Positions 56,991 to 61,545 of a stretch of 64,000 nucleotides of DNA are shown in pieces. The stretch lies in NCBI RefSeq assembly GCF_000424005.1, contig NZ_AUJB01000016.1, positions 1-64,000 of the forward strand, read 5' to 3'. The translations under genes and the position numbers were made by a program. Under the pieces are notes generated by a model that was not told the DNA's origin, ran no database searches, and was given only the letters and a program-made list of their open reading frames with translations. This DNA comes from Pseudobutyrivibrio ruminis CF1b (lineage in GTDB: Bacteria > Bacillota > Clostridia > Lachnospirales > Lachnospiraceae). Position 1 is the stretch's first letter. Every line of letters starts with the position of its first letter.

Positions 56991-57113
56991 GTGAGCATTC
57001 CTCCAAAAAATTCGATTTGTTGAGTTCAATTATACTTGATTGGGGGATTGTGCTTCAATCTCTATATTTTTTGCCCCAATCAAGAATTTAGTTTTACATT
57101 TTATTGAAAACTA

Positions 57114-57144
57114 TTGATTTGGAGTTAACTCCAAGGTGTATAGT
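57114..57144 (+). promoter_or_regulatory. MerR-type promoter with perfect palindromic operator
   Basis: TTGATT (57114-57119) and TATAGT (57139-57144) are 19 bp apart. The palindrome TTGGAGTTAACTCCAA (57119-57134) fills the spacer and matches the site used by AdhR/NmlR-type MerR regulators that respond to aldehydes or electrophiles. No merR gene is nearby. Confidence 0.8.
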
Positions 57145-57189
57145 ACAGACATAGAGATATAAAAGGCCTTTCAGGAGGTGGAGGAAATT

Positions 57190-57549
57190 ATGGTCATGAA
57201 TATAAATGGGACAGTGGTTCCTGTCACATGGGAAGATAATAATTCCGTTAAAGAACTTAGCAATCTGGCTAAGACCGGTCTTGAAATCTCCATGTCAATG
57301 TATGGTGGTTTTGAGCAGGTGGGTTCCATAGGTTCAAGTATTGCAAGAGATGACAAACAGACCACTACAGAACCGGGAGATATCGTACTTTACTGCGGTA
57401 ATCAGTTGGTTGTATTTTATGGTTCAAATTCATGGGCTTATACAAAGCTTGGAAAGATTGAGTTGTCCGAGGATGAACTCACAAATATCTTAAGCAACGG
57501 AGATGTTACGATTACTTTAAGTGTAGAGAAGGAGGAATCAGAGAAATGA
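57190..57549 (+). CDS. Cyclophilin-like fold protein
   Basis: 119 aa. The sequence MNINGTVVPVTWEDNNSVKE, the QVGSIGSSIARDDKQTTTEP stretch and DIVLYCGNQLVVFYGSNSWA (about 59-100) match the small cyclophilin-like beta-barrel family, which lacks a proven peptidyl-prolyl activity. It is the first gene behind the MerR-type promoter; homologues lie in electrophile-response operons with flavin reductases. The start could be ATG 57190 or 57196; GGAGG precedes both. Confidence 0.8.
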   Translation: MVMNINGTVVPVTWEDNNSVKELSNLAKTGLEISMSMYGGFEQVGSIGSSIARDDKQTTTEPGDIVLYCGNQLVVFYGSNSWAYTKLGKIELSEDELTNILSNGDVTITLSVEKEESEK

Positions 57550-57636
57550 AAAAGTGGATCACAAGAAAGTTACCTTTGTAAATCATTTTAGCATTACACT
57601 TGCTACGGATATGTTTACTCCAAAGAATGTCATATG
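57546..57636 (+). pseudogene. Remnant of an alpha/beta hydrolase gene (N-terminus)
   Basis: A frame starting near 57553 reads VDHKKVTFVNHFSITLATDM and FTPKNVI before a stop. The pattern matches the first strands of dienelactone-hydrolase-like proteins of about 300 aa that commonly sit in such MerR-controlled operons. No catalytic part follows; the sequence up to 57700 has no extended ORF. Confidence 0.45.
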
Positions 57637-57727
57637 AAGGTTGAAAGATTTGTAAGTGCTGATACCCCAGAGTCAGAAAATCAGTTTATAAGAAGGTAAG
57701 ATTATTGTGTAAAAGGAGATTTATCTT

Positions 57728-58089
57728 ATGGCAAAAGTATTGATTATCAACGGAAGTCCACGTGTGGGCGGAAACACAAGCATTGCTTTGAATGAAATGG
57801 TAAAAGTATTTGAGGCAGAAGGTGTTGAAGCAGAGGTGGACTATCTGCAACATTTGATGAACTAAACAAGTATTTCACTATCAGTGGAATGCCTGTTGCA
57901 TCCAGCCAGTACTGGAATAGCGTACATGGCAGAGAAAAAGGACAGGCAGAGCAGGATGCAGAAGGACTTCAGACAATGCGTACTCTTGCGAGAAATATGA
58001 CTTTCCTTATGAAGAGTATCGCACTTGGTAAAGAAAAATATGGCTTGCCTGAAAAAGAAGAGTGGCAGCCGACACATTTTATACGATAA
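57728..58089 (+). pseudogene. NADPH-dependent FMN reductase/flavodoxin gene with internal deletion
   Basis: Codons from 57728 read MAKVLIINGSPRVGGNTSIA, the FMN-binding start of the family, and run to a stop at 57865. In a second frame, overlapping from about 57850, the sequence TFDELNKYFTISGMPVASSQ then YWNSVHGREKG, EGLQTMRTLARNM and a final WQPTHFIR matches the C-terminal third of the same family. The middle portion of about 80-90 residues, including the flavin-ring loop, is missing. One gene has evidently lost an internal segment with a frame change. Confidence 0.82.
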
Positions 58090-58107
58090 GAACAGGAGAA
58101 AATCCAA

Positions 58108-58659
58108 ATGAGCAGAGTTAATTTTGGCGCAAAGCCGCTTATGTATCCACAGCCGGTACTTATTATCGGAACCTATGATGAGAACGGTGTACCTAATGCC
58201 ATGAATGCTGCATGGGGAATTACAACAGACTTTAAGGAGATTACCATAAGTCTGTCCGATCACAAGACGACGGACAATCTTAAAGTTAAGAAGGCATTTA
58301 CCGTCAGTATGGCTACAGAAGATCAGGTAGTGCCTTGCGACTACGTTGGCGTTGAGTCCGGAAGAAAAGTTCCTGAGAAGTTTGCTAAAGCCGGTTTCCA
58401 TGCCACAAAGAGTGAATTCGTAGATGCTCCTCTTATTGATGAGCTTCCTCTTGCCATGGAATGCAGGGTAAAGAGCTTTGAAAATGGAATCCTTGTAGGT
58501 GAAATCGTAAATGTCTCGGCTGACGAAAGTGTTGTAACAGACGGAGCTGTGGATATTACAAAGGTTAAGCCTATCAGCTTTGATCCATTTGGAAATGCCT
58601 ATTTTGGCATAGGTGCTAAGGTGGGTAATGCGTTTAAGGATGGTATGGCTTTGAAGTAA
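58108..58659 (+). CDS. Flavin reductase family protein (FMN-binding split barrel)
   Basis: 183 aa. YPQPVLIIGTYDENGVPNAM (near residue 13), AAWGITTDFKEITISLSDHK and FTVSMATEDQVVPCDYVGVE are typical for the FMN-binding split-barrel flavin reductases. It reduces FMN with NAD(P)H. The reading frame is intact although the operon partner upstream is broken. ATG 58108 follows AGGAGA. It ends before a terminator. Confidence 0.9.
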   Translation: MSRVNFGAKPLMYPQPVLIIGTYDENGVPNAMNAAWGITTDFKEITISLSDHKTTDNLKVKKAFTVSMATEDQVVPCDYVGVESGRKVPEKFAKAGFHATKSEFVDAPLIDELPLAMECRVKSFENGILVGEIVNVSADESVVTDGAVDITKVKPISFDPFGNAYFGIGAKVGNAFKDGMALK

Positions 58660-58710
58660 TCTTCAAAGATGAGAACATAAGAAAATCTAGATGGGAAATT
58701 ATAGAAAGAA

Positions 58711-58741
58711 GAGGACTGTGGTCAAAACCGCTGTCCTCTTT
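58711..58741 (+). terminator. Rho-independent terminator of the flavin operon
   Basis: GAGGAC-T-GTGGT, loop CAAA, ACCGC-T-GTCCTC followed by TTTATTG. Confidence 0.85.
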
Positions 58742-58755
58742 ATTGTTAAAGTATT

Positions 58756-59110
58756 AACTACCACGGTATCTTAAAAGTTAAAACATTCCTACTACCCAAA
58801 AGAAAAATATAAAGTTAGGTAGTAGTATTCATGATGAGATTTACTACCTAGATATAGAAAAGAGGATATAGATAGTAATAGAAAAAGTGGAATCTACTAC
58901 CTGTGTCAGAAAGATTTCTATAGATAGTAGAAAAAAGATTAGGATCTACTACCTTAGCTAAAAATTTGGATGTAGATAGTAAAAAATACAATTAATATTA
59001 CTACCCAAACTGCAATATAGTATGAGAGGTAGTAAAAAGCTGGGGGGAATTTACTACCTGAGACATAAAACAAGATTTAGGTAGTAGAAGAAAGAAAAAA
59101 GTTTACTGCC
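58756..59110. repeat. Periodic array of alternating inverted heptamers TACTACC / GRTAGTA (52.3-bp period)
   Basis: TACTACC starts at 58790, 58842, 58895, 58947, 58999 and 59052 (TACTGCC at 59104). The reverse form GGTAGTA or GATAGTA starts at 58818, 58871, 58923, 58975, 59028 and 59080. The period is 52 or 53 bp throughout (mean 52.3). Each forward heptamer is followed by 21-22 bp, each reverse one by exactly 17 bp. The spacers are A-rich and not conserved. AACTACC at 58756 is a degraded edge. No ORF runs through it, and it lies between convergent genes, the last heptamer overlapping the stop codon of the minus-strand gene. It resembles no CRISPR, integron or iteron element I know. Confidence 0.95.
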
Positions 59111-59657
59111 ACTCTTTTTTCAAAATTGCGTATTGATAAGTATTCTCATAGCGCGGAGTTCCATCAGGATTTTTAACAAAACTGATGAACTCCTTGAAAA
59201 GGCCTTCCTGTCTCATTCCAAGCTTGTCGCAAAGATGCTGGCTTGCCTTATTATTGTCCTCAGTATAGGCATATATACGCCTAGCCCCTTTATCCTTAAA
59301 AAGATAATCAAAAAATGCATGTGCTGCCTCGTAGGCGTATCCTTTTCCCTGATATTCCTTATTTAACATCCAGCAAGGACTGAAGGTATCCAGCACAGAA
59401 TCTGCGCCATGTTCATCTGCAGGTTCAGGATAAGCATCAATCTCGCCTATCACTTTCCCAGATTCTTTGATAACTATCGCAAAATAATACTCTGTCTCAG
59501 ACGTTCTTTTTAAAACTTCTTCTTTTGCTTCTTCCAAGGAATGTAGTTTCATATCAGCAAAACAATTCACTGCCGGTTCATTTAGATATTCAAATACATC
59601 CTCTGCATCGTGCTCTTCAAAGGGGCGAAGATATAGTCTTTCTGTTTCTATTACCAT
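59103..59657 (-). CDS. GNAT family N-acetyltransferase (RimJ/RimL-like)
   Basis: 184 aa. The start VIETERLYLRPFEEHDAEDV is the standard opening of the RimJ/RimL group, WMLNKEYQGKGYAYEAAHAF (about 112-131) is the acetyl-CoA loop, and NNKASQHLCDKLGMRQEG follows. The substrate may be a ribosomal protein N-terminus or a small amine. ATG 59657 follows GGAGA. Its stop codon overlaps the last heptamer of the periodic array. Confidence 0.9.
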   Translation of the reverse strand: MVIETERLYLRPFEEHDAEDVFEYLNEPAVNCFADMKLHSLEEAKEEVLKRTSETEYYFAIVIKESGKVIGEIDAYPEPADEHGADSVLDTFSPCWMLNKEYQGKGYAYEAAHAFFDYLFKDKGARRIYAYTEDNNKASQHLCDKLGMRQEGLFKEFISFVKNPDGTPRYENTYQYAILKKEWQ

Positions 59658-59868
59658 AGTGTTATTTTCTCCTACATTAAAAAACTCTTAAATCCGATTG
59701 GTTGATTCCAATTTTACTTGATTGGGAGGATGATATCTATACGAATTGACAAAGAAATGGGAGAGCAGTGCAGCTAACTCTAGATTTTGAAAAGACGAAC
59801 AGTTAGAATGATTGTAATAAATTTAGTTGCGCTATACGCCAGCAATTATTAAGGTAGTGAGGTTTGAT

Positions 59869-59946
59869 ATGGATTATATTCATACGGTGCAATACTACGA
59901 AACGGATAAGATGGGAATCACACATCATTCCAACTACATAAGGTGT
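59869..59946 (+). pseudogene. N-terminal remnant of a YbgC-type acyl-CoA thioesterase
   Basis: ATG 59869 opens with MDYIHTVQYYETDKMGITHH and SNYIR, the highly conserved first 25 residues of 4-hydroxybenzoyl-CoA thioesterase-like (YbgC) proteins, including the Asp and HH pair. After Arg the sequence changes abruptly to the leader of the GNAT gene while staying in frame. The remaining 100 residues are gone. Confidence 0.7.
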
Positions 59947-60006
59947 GATTTGGAATTTTATACAGAATCAAATTCTTGGAATGAAAAGAAAGGGAGAAAG
60001 ACAACT

Positions 60007-60456
60007 ATGGCAGATTTTGAGGTAAGAGAATGTAAAGATACTGAAGTGGTAAAAGAGTTGTTTATGGAATACTCTCAGATTAAAGGTGCAGAAAGCTGCT
60101 TTGTTTCCTTTGACAAGGAACTAGCTGATTTGGAAGGCTTTTACAGCGGGGGTGCACTTCTTGTTGGCTATGAGAAAAATAATCCGGTAGCGAGTATAGC
60201 AATAAAAAAGTTGAATGATTCTACTTGCGAGGCTAAAAGATTATTTATAAAACCAGATAGTAGAGGTAAAGGGTACGCAAGAACCATGCTGAATACCATG
60301 CTTGATAAGTCAAAAGAACTTGGGTTTTCTGAGGTCACATTTACCACAAAACCAGCTGTAATGCAGATAGGCTATGGCTTGTATAAGCGAATGGGTTTTG
60401 AAGAAGTGTCTGAAATAGAAGGAACTGTCAGCATGAGAATGGCTATAGGAGAGTAA
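60007..60456 (+). CDS. GNAT family N-acetyltransferase
   Basis: 149 aa. CEAKRLFIKPDSRGKGYART (about residues 75-94) holds the acetyl-CoA loop (R-G-K-G-Y-A), and YGLYKRMGFEEV is the usual C-terminal strand. ATG 60007 with GGGAG upstream is chosen; the ORF is open further up and joins in frame to the thioesterase remnant at 59869, so a 195-aa hybrid could also be made. The acceptor is unknown. Confidence 0.85.
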   Translation: MADFEVRECKDTEVVKELFMEYSQIKGAESCFVSFDKELADLEGFYSGGALLVGYEKNNPVASIAIKKLNDSTCEAKRLFIKPDSRGKGYARTMLNTMLDKSKELGFSEVTFTTKPAVMQIGYGLYKRMGFEEVSEIEGTVSMRMAIGE

Positions 60457-60591
60457 AAAGGAGAGGCTATGTTGGCAATTTACCGCGCAAGCATGTAAAT
60501 AAACAAACAGTAGTAGAGATTGAAAAACAATTCACATTTATATGTTACTATCAGTGTGATGTTGTAAATAAATCATAAGGAGTAGTGCCCT

Positions 60592-61545
60592 ATGGAATAT
60601 TTAATCAATCTTCTACTACTGTTTTTTGCTTTTTCATTTATCGGCTGGTGTATAGAGGTTACTCTGAAATATCGCCAGTTTCACAGATTCATTAACAGAG
60701 GCTTTCTCACTGGCCCCTGGCTGCCAATATACGGCTTTGGGGCAGTTCTTATTACAGTTTCAGTGCAGGGGATAGCAGGCTTTGAATCTTCGATTGGTAC
60801 CACATTTGTTATTTCTTTTAATGTATGTGGAATCGTTGAATATCTTGCAAGCTATTTCCTGGAGAAACGTTATCATGCCAGATGGTGGGATTACAGTCAA
60901 AAGCCAATGAACCTTAAAGGTCGAGTATGGATTGGAAATCTGATCCTTTTCGGACTTGGAGGAATTGCTATTATTGAGCTGGCTAATCCAATATTCTACG
61001 ATTTATTCTCCAGAATTAGTCTCATGACAAGAAGCATTATCGCAGGCCTTTTGTCATGTGTTTTTATCACAGATTACATTAGCTCACAGTTTATCATGAA
61101 GATGGTTAAGGCCGGCGTTGAAAACAGTGAGGCTGATAATACTGAAGAAATTAATAAAGAGATTCTTCTTCTCTTCAGTGATAAATCATACTTCTATCGC
61201 AGATTTGCAGATGCTTATCCTGATGTAATCTATCGTACTGAAAAGATTAAAGCCCACATGGAAGAGGTTCGCATCGAGACAGAACGTCTCCGTGCAGAAG
61301 CCGAAGTTCGTCTGAGTGAGATGAATGAAAGATTGGCAGAGAGCAGAGAGCAATTCGCTGCCACTGTGGATCCAGTTGGAACAGCTAAAAATAAGATGAT
61401 TTCAAAACAGGAATCATTAATCGAGCTCCTTTATGATGAGGAAAGTGCCACAGAGGAGATGAAGGGACTTGTGGAAGAAATAGCTGAGTGCAAATCTATT
61501 ATTGAGAAGAGAAGGATTGGAGGGAATTTCCTATGGGAACACTAA
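60592..61545 (+). CDS. Putative ABC transporter permease, CmpB family membrane protein
   Basis: 317 aa. About five N-terminal helices (LLLLFFAFSFIGWCIEVTLK onwards). RGFLTGPWLPIYGFGAVLI near residue 37 and HARWWDYSQKPMNLKGRVWI near residue 97 are the signature stretches of the ABC_trans_CmpB family. The last 90 residues are a charged, probable coiled coil (METERLRAEAEVRLSEMNER region). No ATPase is adjacent. The family's function is not settled. It overlaps the next gene by 13 bp. Confidence 0.85.
   Translation: MEYLINLLLLFFAFSFIGWCIEVTLKYRQFHRFINRGFLTGPWLPIYGFGAVLITVSVQGIAGFESSIGTTFVISFNVCGIVEYLASYFLEKRYHARWWDYSQKPMNLKGRVWIGNLILFGLGGIAIIELANPIFYDLFSRISLMTRSIIAGLLSCVFITDYISSQFIMKMVKAGVENSEADNTEEINKEILLLFSDKSYFYRRFADAYPDVIYRTEKIKAHMEEVRIETERLRAEAEVRLSEMNERLAESREQFAATVDPVGTAKNKMISKQESLIELLYDEESATEEMKGLVEEIAECKSIIEKRRIGGNFLWEH

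Follow-up and report, generated by a model that had tools for sequence, protein, structure and literature searches.

Helically phased palindrome arrays and a linked family of putative PD-(D/E)XK nuclease-like proteins in Lachnospiraceae

Introduction

Plasmid iterons are direct repeats of about two helical turns that lie beside the gene of a replication initiator. In the REP/RAYT system (PMC2817692), a nuclease-type gene is flanked by repeats, gene and repeats co-evolve, and the RAYT protein is proposed to spread the REPs.

Here we describe an array of short palindromes in Pseudobutyrivibrio ruminis CF1b, lying in a 64-kb stretch of DNA (64,000 nucleotides, hereafter the window). Our preferred reading, to which we attach a probability of about 0.67 from sequence analysis, is that this array belongs to a two-part system, a nuclease-like protein and its cognate phased palindromes, and represents one of the dispersed ‘solo’ binding arrays of that system. 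At the level of sequence, the comparisons below establish that the palindromes are phased, that heptamers are conserved over spacers, that arrays are linked to the 5' side of the genes and that the repeated word tracks protein identity.

The array in the window

The array (58790-59086) consists of six TACTACC-N21/22-GRTAGTA palindromes with a period of 52-53 bp, plus a seventh half-site. The features of the region are as follows.

58790..58824, no strand, palindrome 1 (TACTACC ... GGTAGTA)
58842..58877, no strand, palindrome 2 (TACTACC ... GATAGTA)
58895..58929, no strand, palindrome 3 (TACTACC ... GATAGTA)
58947..58981, no strand, palindrome 4 (TACTACC ... GATAGTA)
58999..59034, no strand, palindrome 5 (TACTACC ... 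GGTAGTA)
59052..59086, no strand, palindrome 6 (TACTACC ... GGTAGTA)
59104..59110, plus strand, seventh half-site TACTGCC, degenerate but keeping the register, and overlapping the GNAT stop codon
58108..58659, plus strand, flavin reductase-like flanking gene (PF01613), context, outside the system
59103..59657, minus strand, GNAT acetyltransferase flanking gene (PF13302), context
58709..58740, no strand, inverted repeat whose arms of 14 nt are 86% complementary, with T-rich DNA after it

TACTACC starts at 58790, 58842, 58895, 58947, 58999 and 59052 which, with the TACTGCC at 59104, gives steps of 52, 53, 52, 52, 53 and 52. The reverse heptamers start at 58818, 58871, 58923, 58975, 59028 and 59080 (steps 53, 52, 52, 53, 52), and the distance from a reverse start to the following forward start is 24 in every case. 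This recount reproduces the six forward and six reverse alternating heptamers, with the same steps, of the preliminary description, which was also right to place the array between convergent genes, the flavin reductase-like gene on the plus and the GNAT gene on the minus strand. All six plus-strand copies of TACTACC in the window are inside the array, and the three-site pattern has six matches there as against none in each of 100 dinucleotide shuffles. The inverted repeat at 58709-58740 separates the array from the flavin reductase gene and, by eye, resembles a terminator.

Occurrence and regularity of the arrays

In the genome to which the window belongs (3.27 Mb, 16 contigs; G000 below), the pair pattern is found at six places, in arrays at C1:652945, C7:156653, C8:58790 (the window array) and C8:67196 and additionally at C1:337715 and C11:7456; the reversed control pattern has no match. 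At least one pair is present in 20 of 61 genomes (G000 included), 18 of them of the same genus; since the reversed control gives 0-2 matches per genome over the same 61, low pair counts represent background. The three-site pattern TACTAYC/GRTAGTA/TACTAYC is found in 13 of the 29 genomes of the genus, again counting G000, and in none of the other 16, with no reversed-control match in any of the 29. The search of related genomes proposed in the preliminary description thus does find the array elsewhere. When named genomes were searched, 39 of 42 matching stretches came from Pseudobutyrivibrio; the other three (Chamaesiphon, a Neisseriaceae MAG and SKW194) are close to chance expectation by our own rough estimate and were excluded from later counts. 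One viral contig matched the array pattern.

Both flanking genes could be called, as longest open frames, at 35 of 48 array places, one of which is on a viral contig. They are in tandem at 25, convergent at eight and divergent at two, and with so few arrays between divergent genes, promoter or divergent control was rejected as an explanation. In strain YE44, arrays of 51-bp period at three loci (L038, L041 and L046) contain open frames of 96-132 aa, as 51 bp amounts to 17 codons; these frames are probably spurious.

The spacing of the sites varies little. Over 39 loci and the window, the forward-to-reverse start distance is 28 (177 cases) or 29 (47), with 26, 30 and 32 seen once each, and the reverse-to-forward distance is 24 (175), 23 (13) or 13 (11), with 21 and 10 once each. 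Distances of 28/29 therefore hold for 224 of 227 forward-reverse neighbours and 24/23 for 188 of 201 reverse-forward neighbours, this count being less restricted than two others, which were confined to allowed distances. The variant of 13 is 11 bp, about one helical turn, below 24. A further 16 neighbours of like orientation (six forward-forward, ten reverse-reverse), mostly reflecting one missing site, stand outside the 227 and 201. Pooling 46 distinct arrays (544 sites) gives the palindrome YTACTAYCTRtR, with an A/T-rich centre and a mirror half, and an outer 17-bp spacer holding nearly no information. The frequency of C or T at position 6 varies among genomes. Two long composite arrays, G011:C1:218944-220018 and G019:C11:32809-33231, have TACTAYC-type and TACTGCC-type stretches side by side.

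A nuclease-like protein family

Several of the arrays separate comEC from a gene that encodes a protein of 262 aa; in G000 this gene is found downstream of comEC at G000:C1:653314-654099. By tblastn, the family has a match in 28 of the 29 genomes of the genus and at nine places in G000, and so is multi-copy. Sampling Lachnospiraceae with one genome per genus gave matches in 56 of 150, extending over at least 200 residues in 45; the remaining 11 have partial matches only, some in the tail of frames of 1100-1240 aa. A phylum-wide profile search hit 19 of 348 genomes, with full-length matches confined to G000, G343, G422 and G446, four genomes that belong to one and the same family.

No Pfam model scored above cut-off in 11 members scanned (best sub-cut-off E 0.0028), nor any NCBIfam model in 10 (best E 0.022). 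Among 74 proteins, however, R155, S156, K157, E159, Y175, E176, P189, D190, F191, E205, H206, G208, Y215 and E242 are invariant. E159, D190 and E205 are presumed, by likeness to PD-(D/E)XK motifs, to form the active site; in the region of the (D/E)XK lysine the motif reads E-H-x-G, while K157 is invariant and K222 is 95% conserved in the same 74 proteins. The proteins of about 262 aa are presumed to be PD-(D/E)XK-type and nuclease-like, with an apparently intact signature. Their C-terminal domain is matched by PDC-S68 (PADLOC) in 30 of 30 members, by PDC-S69 in 29 of 30 and by HEAT_CxxC_PDDEXK in 23 of 30; phage endonuclease and Holliday-junction resolvase families match weakly, each in up to 6 of 30.

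A structure model of fair quality, built from 14 sequences, reached a pLDDT of 81.2 and a pTM of 0.51, an earlier choice of five sequences (pLDDT 51.8) being set aside as too poor. Foldseek comparison of the family model with the PDB gave no match below E 1e-3; its top 50, all above that value, include the DNA-cutting Bax1, DrdV, MunI and FAN1 along with V-ATPase subunits and prefoldins.

Seven plasmid records match the family, none over 80% of the protein, as do three phage records, one of them a 4.2-kb contig over 84% at 29% identity. Nine loci on viral contigs match only in the C-terminal part, in frames of about 1250-1300 aa in the two inspected. With these matches few or partial, a phage or plasmid origin of the family was rejected. 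On the viral contigs L224 and L228, the same C-terminal nuclease domain ends proteins of 1298 and 1251 aa that look ATPase/helicase-like by eye.

The presumed active site, invariant in all 74 proteins, and the C-terminal domain in common with PDC-S68, a candidate phage-defence protein, bear on the main functional alternative to our reading, which has the same binding partners. The protein would be a leashed defence nuclease, held by the genomic arrays as an inactive lattice, and the arrays would release it or mark self versus foreign DNA. Judged by eye from translations, however, the neighbours of the members at eight loci in G000 look like ordinary chromosomal genes with no evident defence island, and we think this alternative unlikely, if deserving of attention.

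Most family genes have an array upstream

Arrays were sought beside 85 distinct family genes, drawn from the genus, Lachnospiraceae and phylum-wide searches and from a further set of stretches, with at least 300 bp of flank available upstream in 76 and downstream in 84, as 8-mers repeated at one lag (threshold 25). A tandem array lies just upstream of 53 of the 76 genes and downstream of 19 of the 84, in a sample where genes and arrays are related, so that these counts are not independent; 23 of the 76 have no upstream array at the threshold used. Four of the downstream arrays have periods near 52.5; in seven others the period is 30-45 and close to a multiple of three, so that these may reflect coding sequence. 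A second measure, a 7-mer present at least four times upstream and in both orientations, is satisfied by 55 of 66 genes, compared with 2-10 of 66 in each of five shuffled sets. Eight further members from G000 include one flagged by the first detector and seven flagged by the 7-mer test.

The periods of the 53 upstream arrays fall into classes: 37 at 50.6-54.0, seven at 62.0-64.5, six at 73.0-74.9 and single arrays at 83.2, 31.3 and 37.8, while the ranges 54.0-61.9 and 64.6-72.9 are empty. Of the 16 periods outside the main class, 15 depart by no more than 1.6 bp from some multiple of 10.5, although a Rayleigh scan of the periods points to 10.5 bp only in a broad way, giving 0.86 both at 10.5 and at 11.0 bp.

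Many draft contigs (G061:C103:267, G091:C141:760, G096:C12:700, G130:C21:82 and others) start a few hundred bases 5' of family genes; arrays may break assemblies and hence be under-counted. At locus L145 (G009:C1:1982500-1988900) the gene copy is broken, giving three tblastn pieces and an internal TAA, and an array of the word CTACTGC is still present upstream.

Words tend to follow the protein

In 13 of 30 family loci fetched, comEC is beside the family gene. Ten of these, each from a genome positive for TACTAYC, show arrays of that word in the interval separating the two genes or surrounding them. The other three are in genomes without TACTAYC triples and have, in the corresponding position, arrays of TACTGCC (G012) or, read by eye, a ACTACCCC-like word (G017) and an ACCTGCC-like word (G004). 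The array-positive genomes G005, G023 and G025 are represented by a single fetched locus each, not ComEC-linked. G012 has TACTGCC arrays at five places and no TACTAYC triple, a pattern of concerted change. G011, G013 and G019 have arrays of both words, and are exceptions to any rule that assigns a single motif to each genome and protein.

Other members have other words. The pair pattern of GGCATAAA is found in G000 only at G000:C2:370232-370474, just upstream of its own family member, and further members have GACACG, ATGCATCC, CCCATAC, TTAAGT and others; six loci of G019 have six different words. Pairs of genes share a word in 25 of 1379 cases below 50% protein identity (0/96, 7/390, 14/392, 2/277, 1/160 and 1/64 in the successive bins), in 16 of 65 at 50-60%, in 29 of 38 at 60-90% and in 3 of 3 above, the pairs again being related and their counts not independent. 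Related proteins thus share words where unrelated ones seldom do, and from one species to another a word tends to stay with its paralogue.

Unrelated-looking upstream words often contain a CGTA core (ACCCGTA, AACCGTA, GCCGTAA, AATCGTA), perhaps pointing to a contact that members of the protein family share.

These results bear on whether the arrays instead serve an unlinked DNA-binding protein, as operators or chromosome-organising sites, with the nuclease-like gene merely one of its targets. A place directly upstream of family genes is the usual operator position, and the DNA-binding domain of the nuclease-like protein is itself only putative. However, since paralogues within one genome differ in word, as in G019, and words follow the paralogue, one unlinked regulator would be needed for each paralogue, and we consider such a protein distinctly unlikely.

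Copying and dispersal

The window array has a counterpart 8.4 kb away. The two share 87.5% identity over 337 bp, in a region reaching from about 16 bp before the first site to the last half-site of the window array, and clearly homologous spacers are seen in some other arrays of the family. The preliminary description called the spacers unconserved: it holds that heptamers are kept while spacers drift, but the spacers are compatible with spread by copying, because of the likeness between the window array and that at C8:67196 and the homologous spacers elsewhere. Spacers that are homologous copies, which it had equated with a simple degenerate tandem repeat, are found in some family arrays and between the window array and its copy.

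None of nine flavin-reductase-like loci in other species (66-68% identity, putative orthologues) has a TACTRYC-type array. The window array is not conserved in place, therefore, and is probably a recent copy. No close relative with the same flavin reductase-GNAT gene pair, in which an empty site might be seen, was found. The idea that solo arrays are the scars of excised genes was rejected as unsupported: among the loci fetched, genes with TACTAYC arrays upstream occur only at comEC.

In P. xylanivorans DSM 14809 and in G000, several arrays are found inside a dispersed element of about 690 bp (L081:9300-9991, on G000:C7, and also in L057, L061, L066, L074 and L075). Terminator-like hairpins (AGAGGTTTAG...CTAAACCTCT) bound the element on the outside, long inverted repeats lie within it, and its middle contains a TACTACC array; in L081 and L061 it starts a few bases past a stop codon.

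Constraint on the heptamers

Seven sets of orthologous or copied arrays were compared. The six fixed heptamer bases differ in only 8 of 1062 comparisons (0.8%) and the variable heptamer base in 22 of 177, against 245 of 1833 for inner and 210 of 1292 for outer spacers (13-16%) and 674 of 3238 for flanks. Sites were picked by resemblance to the consensus, which lowers the apparent divergence of the heptamers, an effect that we judge unable to account for the whole of the heptamer-spacer gap.

Such constraint is hard to reconcile with a selfish or neutral tandem repeat that spreads without a bound protein and owes its regularity to its origin by duplication. Arrays are copied whole from one locus to another, the copied stretch stopping close to the edges of the array, and some arrays have homologous spacers, both of which would suit a repeat of this kind. 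Against it, orthologous arrays keep their heptamers as the spacers drift, the periods form several classes of which almost all fall close to whole turns, and the arrays are tied to one gene family with matching words. This origin is highly unlikely in our view.

DNA or RNA?

Might the array instead act as RNA or single-stranded DNA, as a series of hairpins of 7-11 bp in a 3' UTR or a small RNA? Both strands of the window array fold better than 100 shuffles each (z -6.05 and -4.36), as inverted-repeat arrays in general should. The preliminary description had counted the GATAGTA copies as mismatches, which is correct for a plus-strand RNA and not for the minus strand, where G-U pairs accommodate all three, and it is on the minus strand that transcription of the GNAT gene would continue into the array. 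The scarcity of arrays between divergent genes, noted above for 2 of 35 places, also suits an RNA.

However, the halves of the palindromes show no covariation at positions 0, 6 and 8-13 (211 unique forward-reverse pairs, with within-array shuffles), and the RNA reading is unlikely for that reason. The halves of neighbouring palindromes (174 reverse-forward pairs) reach a marginal value at one position of eight (position 12, 17/1000 shuffles). On the strand of the neighbouring gene, wobble-compatible pairs do not exceed mismatches (31 versus 37 and, with both flanks agreeing, 20 versus 28), and none of five Rfam matches in the window (57000-61000) is above its gathering score, the best having 28.2 bits against 47. 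An RNA would also leave the near-whole-turn periods unexplained. With no covariation, no sense-strand bias and no Rfam match above the gathering score, an RNA element was rejected as the main reading, and we would now find it very surprising.

The preliminary description had like sites lying on one face of the helix, favouring a protein lattice. Near-whole-turn units, kept heptamers, the lack of covariation and the lack of a sense-strand bias speak independently in its favour, the lattice itself being something we infer. That description did not include the nuclease-like gene family as the likely binding partner, nor the status of the array as a dispersed copy.

A model for the system

In the two-part system that we prefer, a protein dimer would bind each palindrome of about 36 bp, and successive dimers would stack on one face of the DNA to form a lattice on the double strand. 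The protein binding TACTAYC arrays would be the family member encoded downstream of comEC. With less weight, the protein may maintain and spread the arrays through cutting and recombination, as proposed for RAYT and the REPs, and the array 5' of the gene that encodes it may act as a restraint on the protein.

A wider proposal is that Lachnospiraceae hold an undescribed class of nuclease-array systems in which each gene encodes a sequence-specific PD-(D/E)XK protein that forms a one-faced lattice on its own upstream array of palindromes at five, six or seven turns, protein and word co-evolve, and the arrays of some lineages have been seeded chromosome-wide under selection, amounting to an independent REPIN-RAYT way of life. 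Our belief in this larger picture is evenly poised. Roughly one in three of the sampled Lachnospiraceae genomes has the family. Its words turn over fast and vary from paralogue to paralogue, so that the rules of recognition could be worked out purely from sequence, and the whole-turn period classes make the lattice directly testable.

Comparison with known systems

A search of the open-access literature found, among the papers listed, no description of the array or of the protein family, and PMC3733652 has no occurrence of Lachnospiraceae, Butyrivibrio, Firmicutes or Clostridi; the array-linked nuclease-like family appears to be undescribed. PDC-S68 has the C-terminal nuclease domain in common with all 30 aligned members (best 3.6e-30). 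PDC-S68 models run to about 1200 positions, however, and of 1221 model positions a representative member is matched by just the final ~130, whereas the present proteins have about 262 aa and another N-terminus. T7 endonuclease I has weak profile similarity at the R-S-x-x-E and PDF motifs (PDB E ~0.11, not significant), and the phage Holliday-junction resolvase family PHROG 9019 matches 5 of 30 members, a role at four-way junctions being only putative.

As with iterons, phased repeats lie upstream of a gene whose product is thought to bind them, but here they are mostly inverted pairs at five, six or seven turns, beside a nuclease-like gene and on the chromosome. The TAACTGA repeats of Beggiatoaceae are likewise 7-mer words that occur as numerous intergenic sets in a single bacterial lineage, but they are described as mostly direct repeats, in a summary that mentions no linked nuclease-like family (PMC4679880).

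Membership of the REP/BIME-RAYT system was rejected, with no Y1_Tnp gene and no compensatory hairpin changes: the present proteins are PD-(D/E)XK-type rather than Y1_Tnp (PF01797), for which G000 has no match in a search whose control was positive in 5 of 14 genomes. The units also differ from REPs in being palindromes of ~36 bp, phased at whole turns and without hairpin covariation, and in having few arrays per genome and paralogues with differing words. Nonetheless, the present arrays resemble REPs and BIMEs in alternating orientation, regular spacing and intergenic position. As with RAYT genes, three distinct ComEC-linked genes (L093 = L045; L094; L096 = L040) are flanked by arrays both upstream and downstream; at the other seven TACTAYC comEC loci the array is confined, wholly or very nearly, to the upstream side. 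A nuclease-type gene, cognate dispersed intergenic repeats and gene-repeat co-evolution are features in common with REPIN-RAYT systems (PMC2817692). If our reading is true, the Lachnospiraceae family would be a second, unrelated case of a chromosomal nuclease gene with its own dispersed population of DNA repeats.
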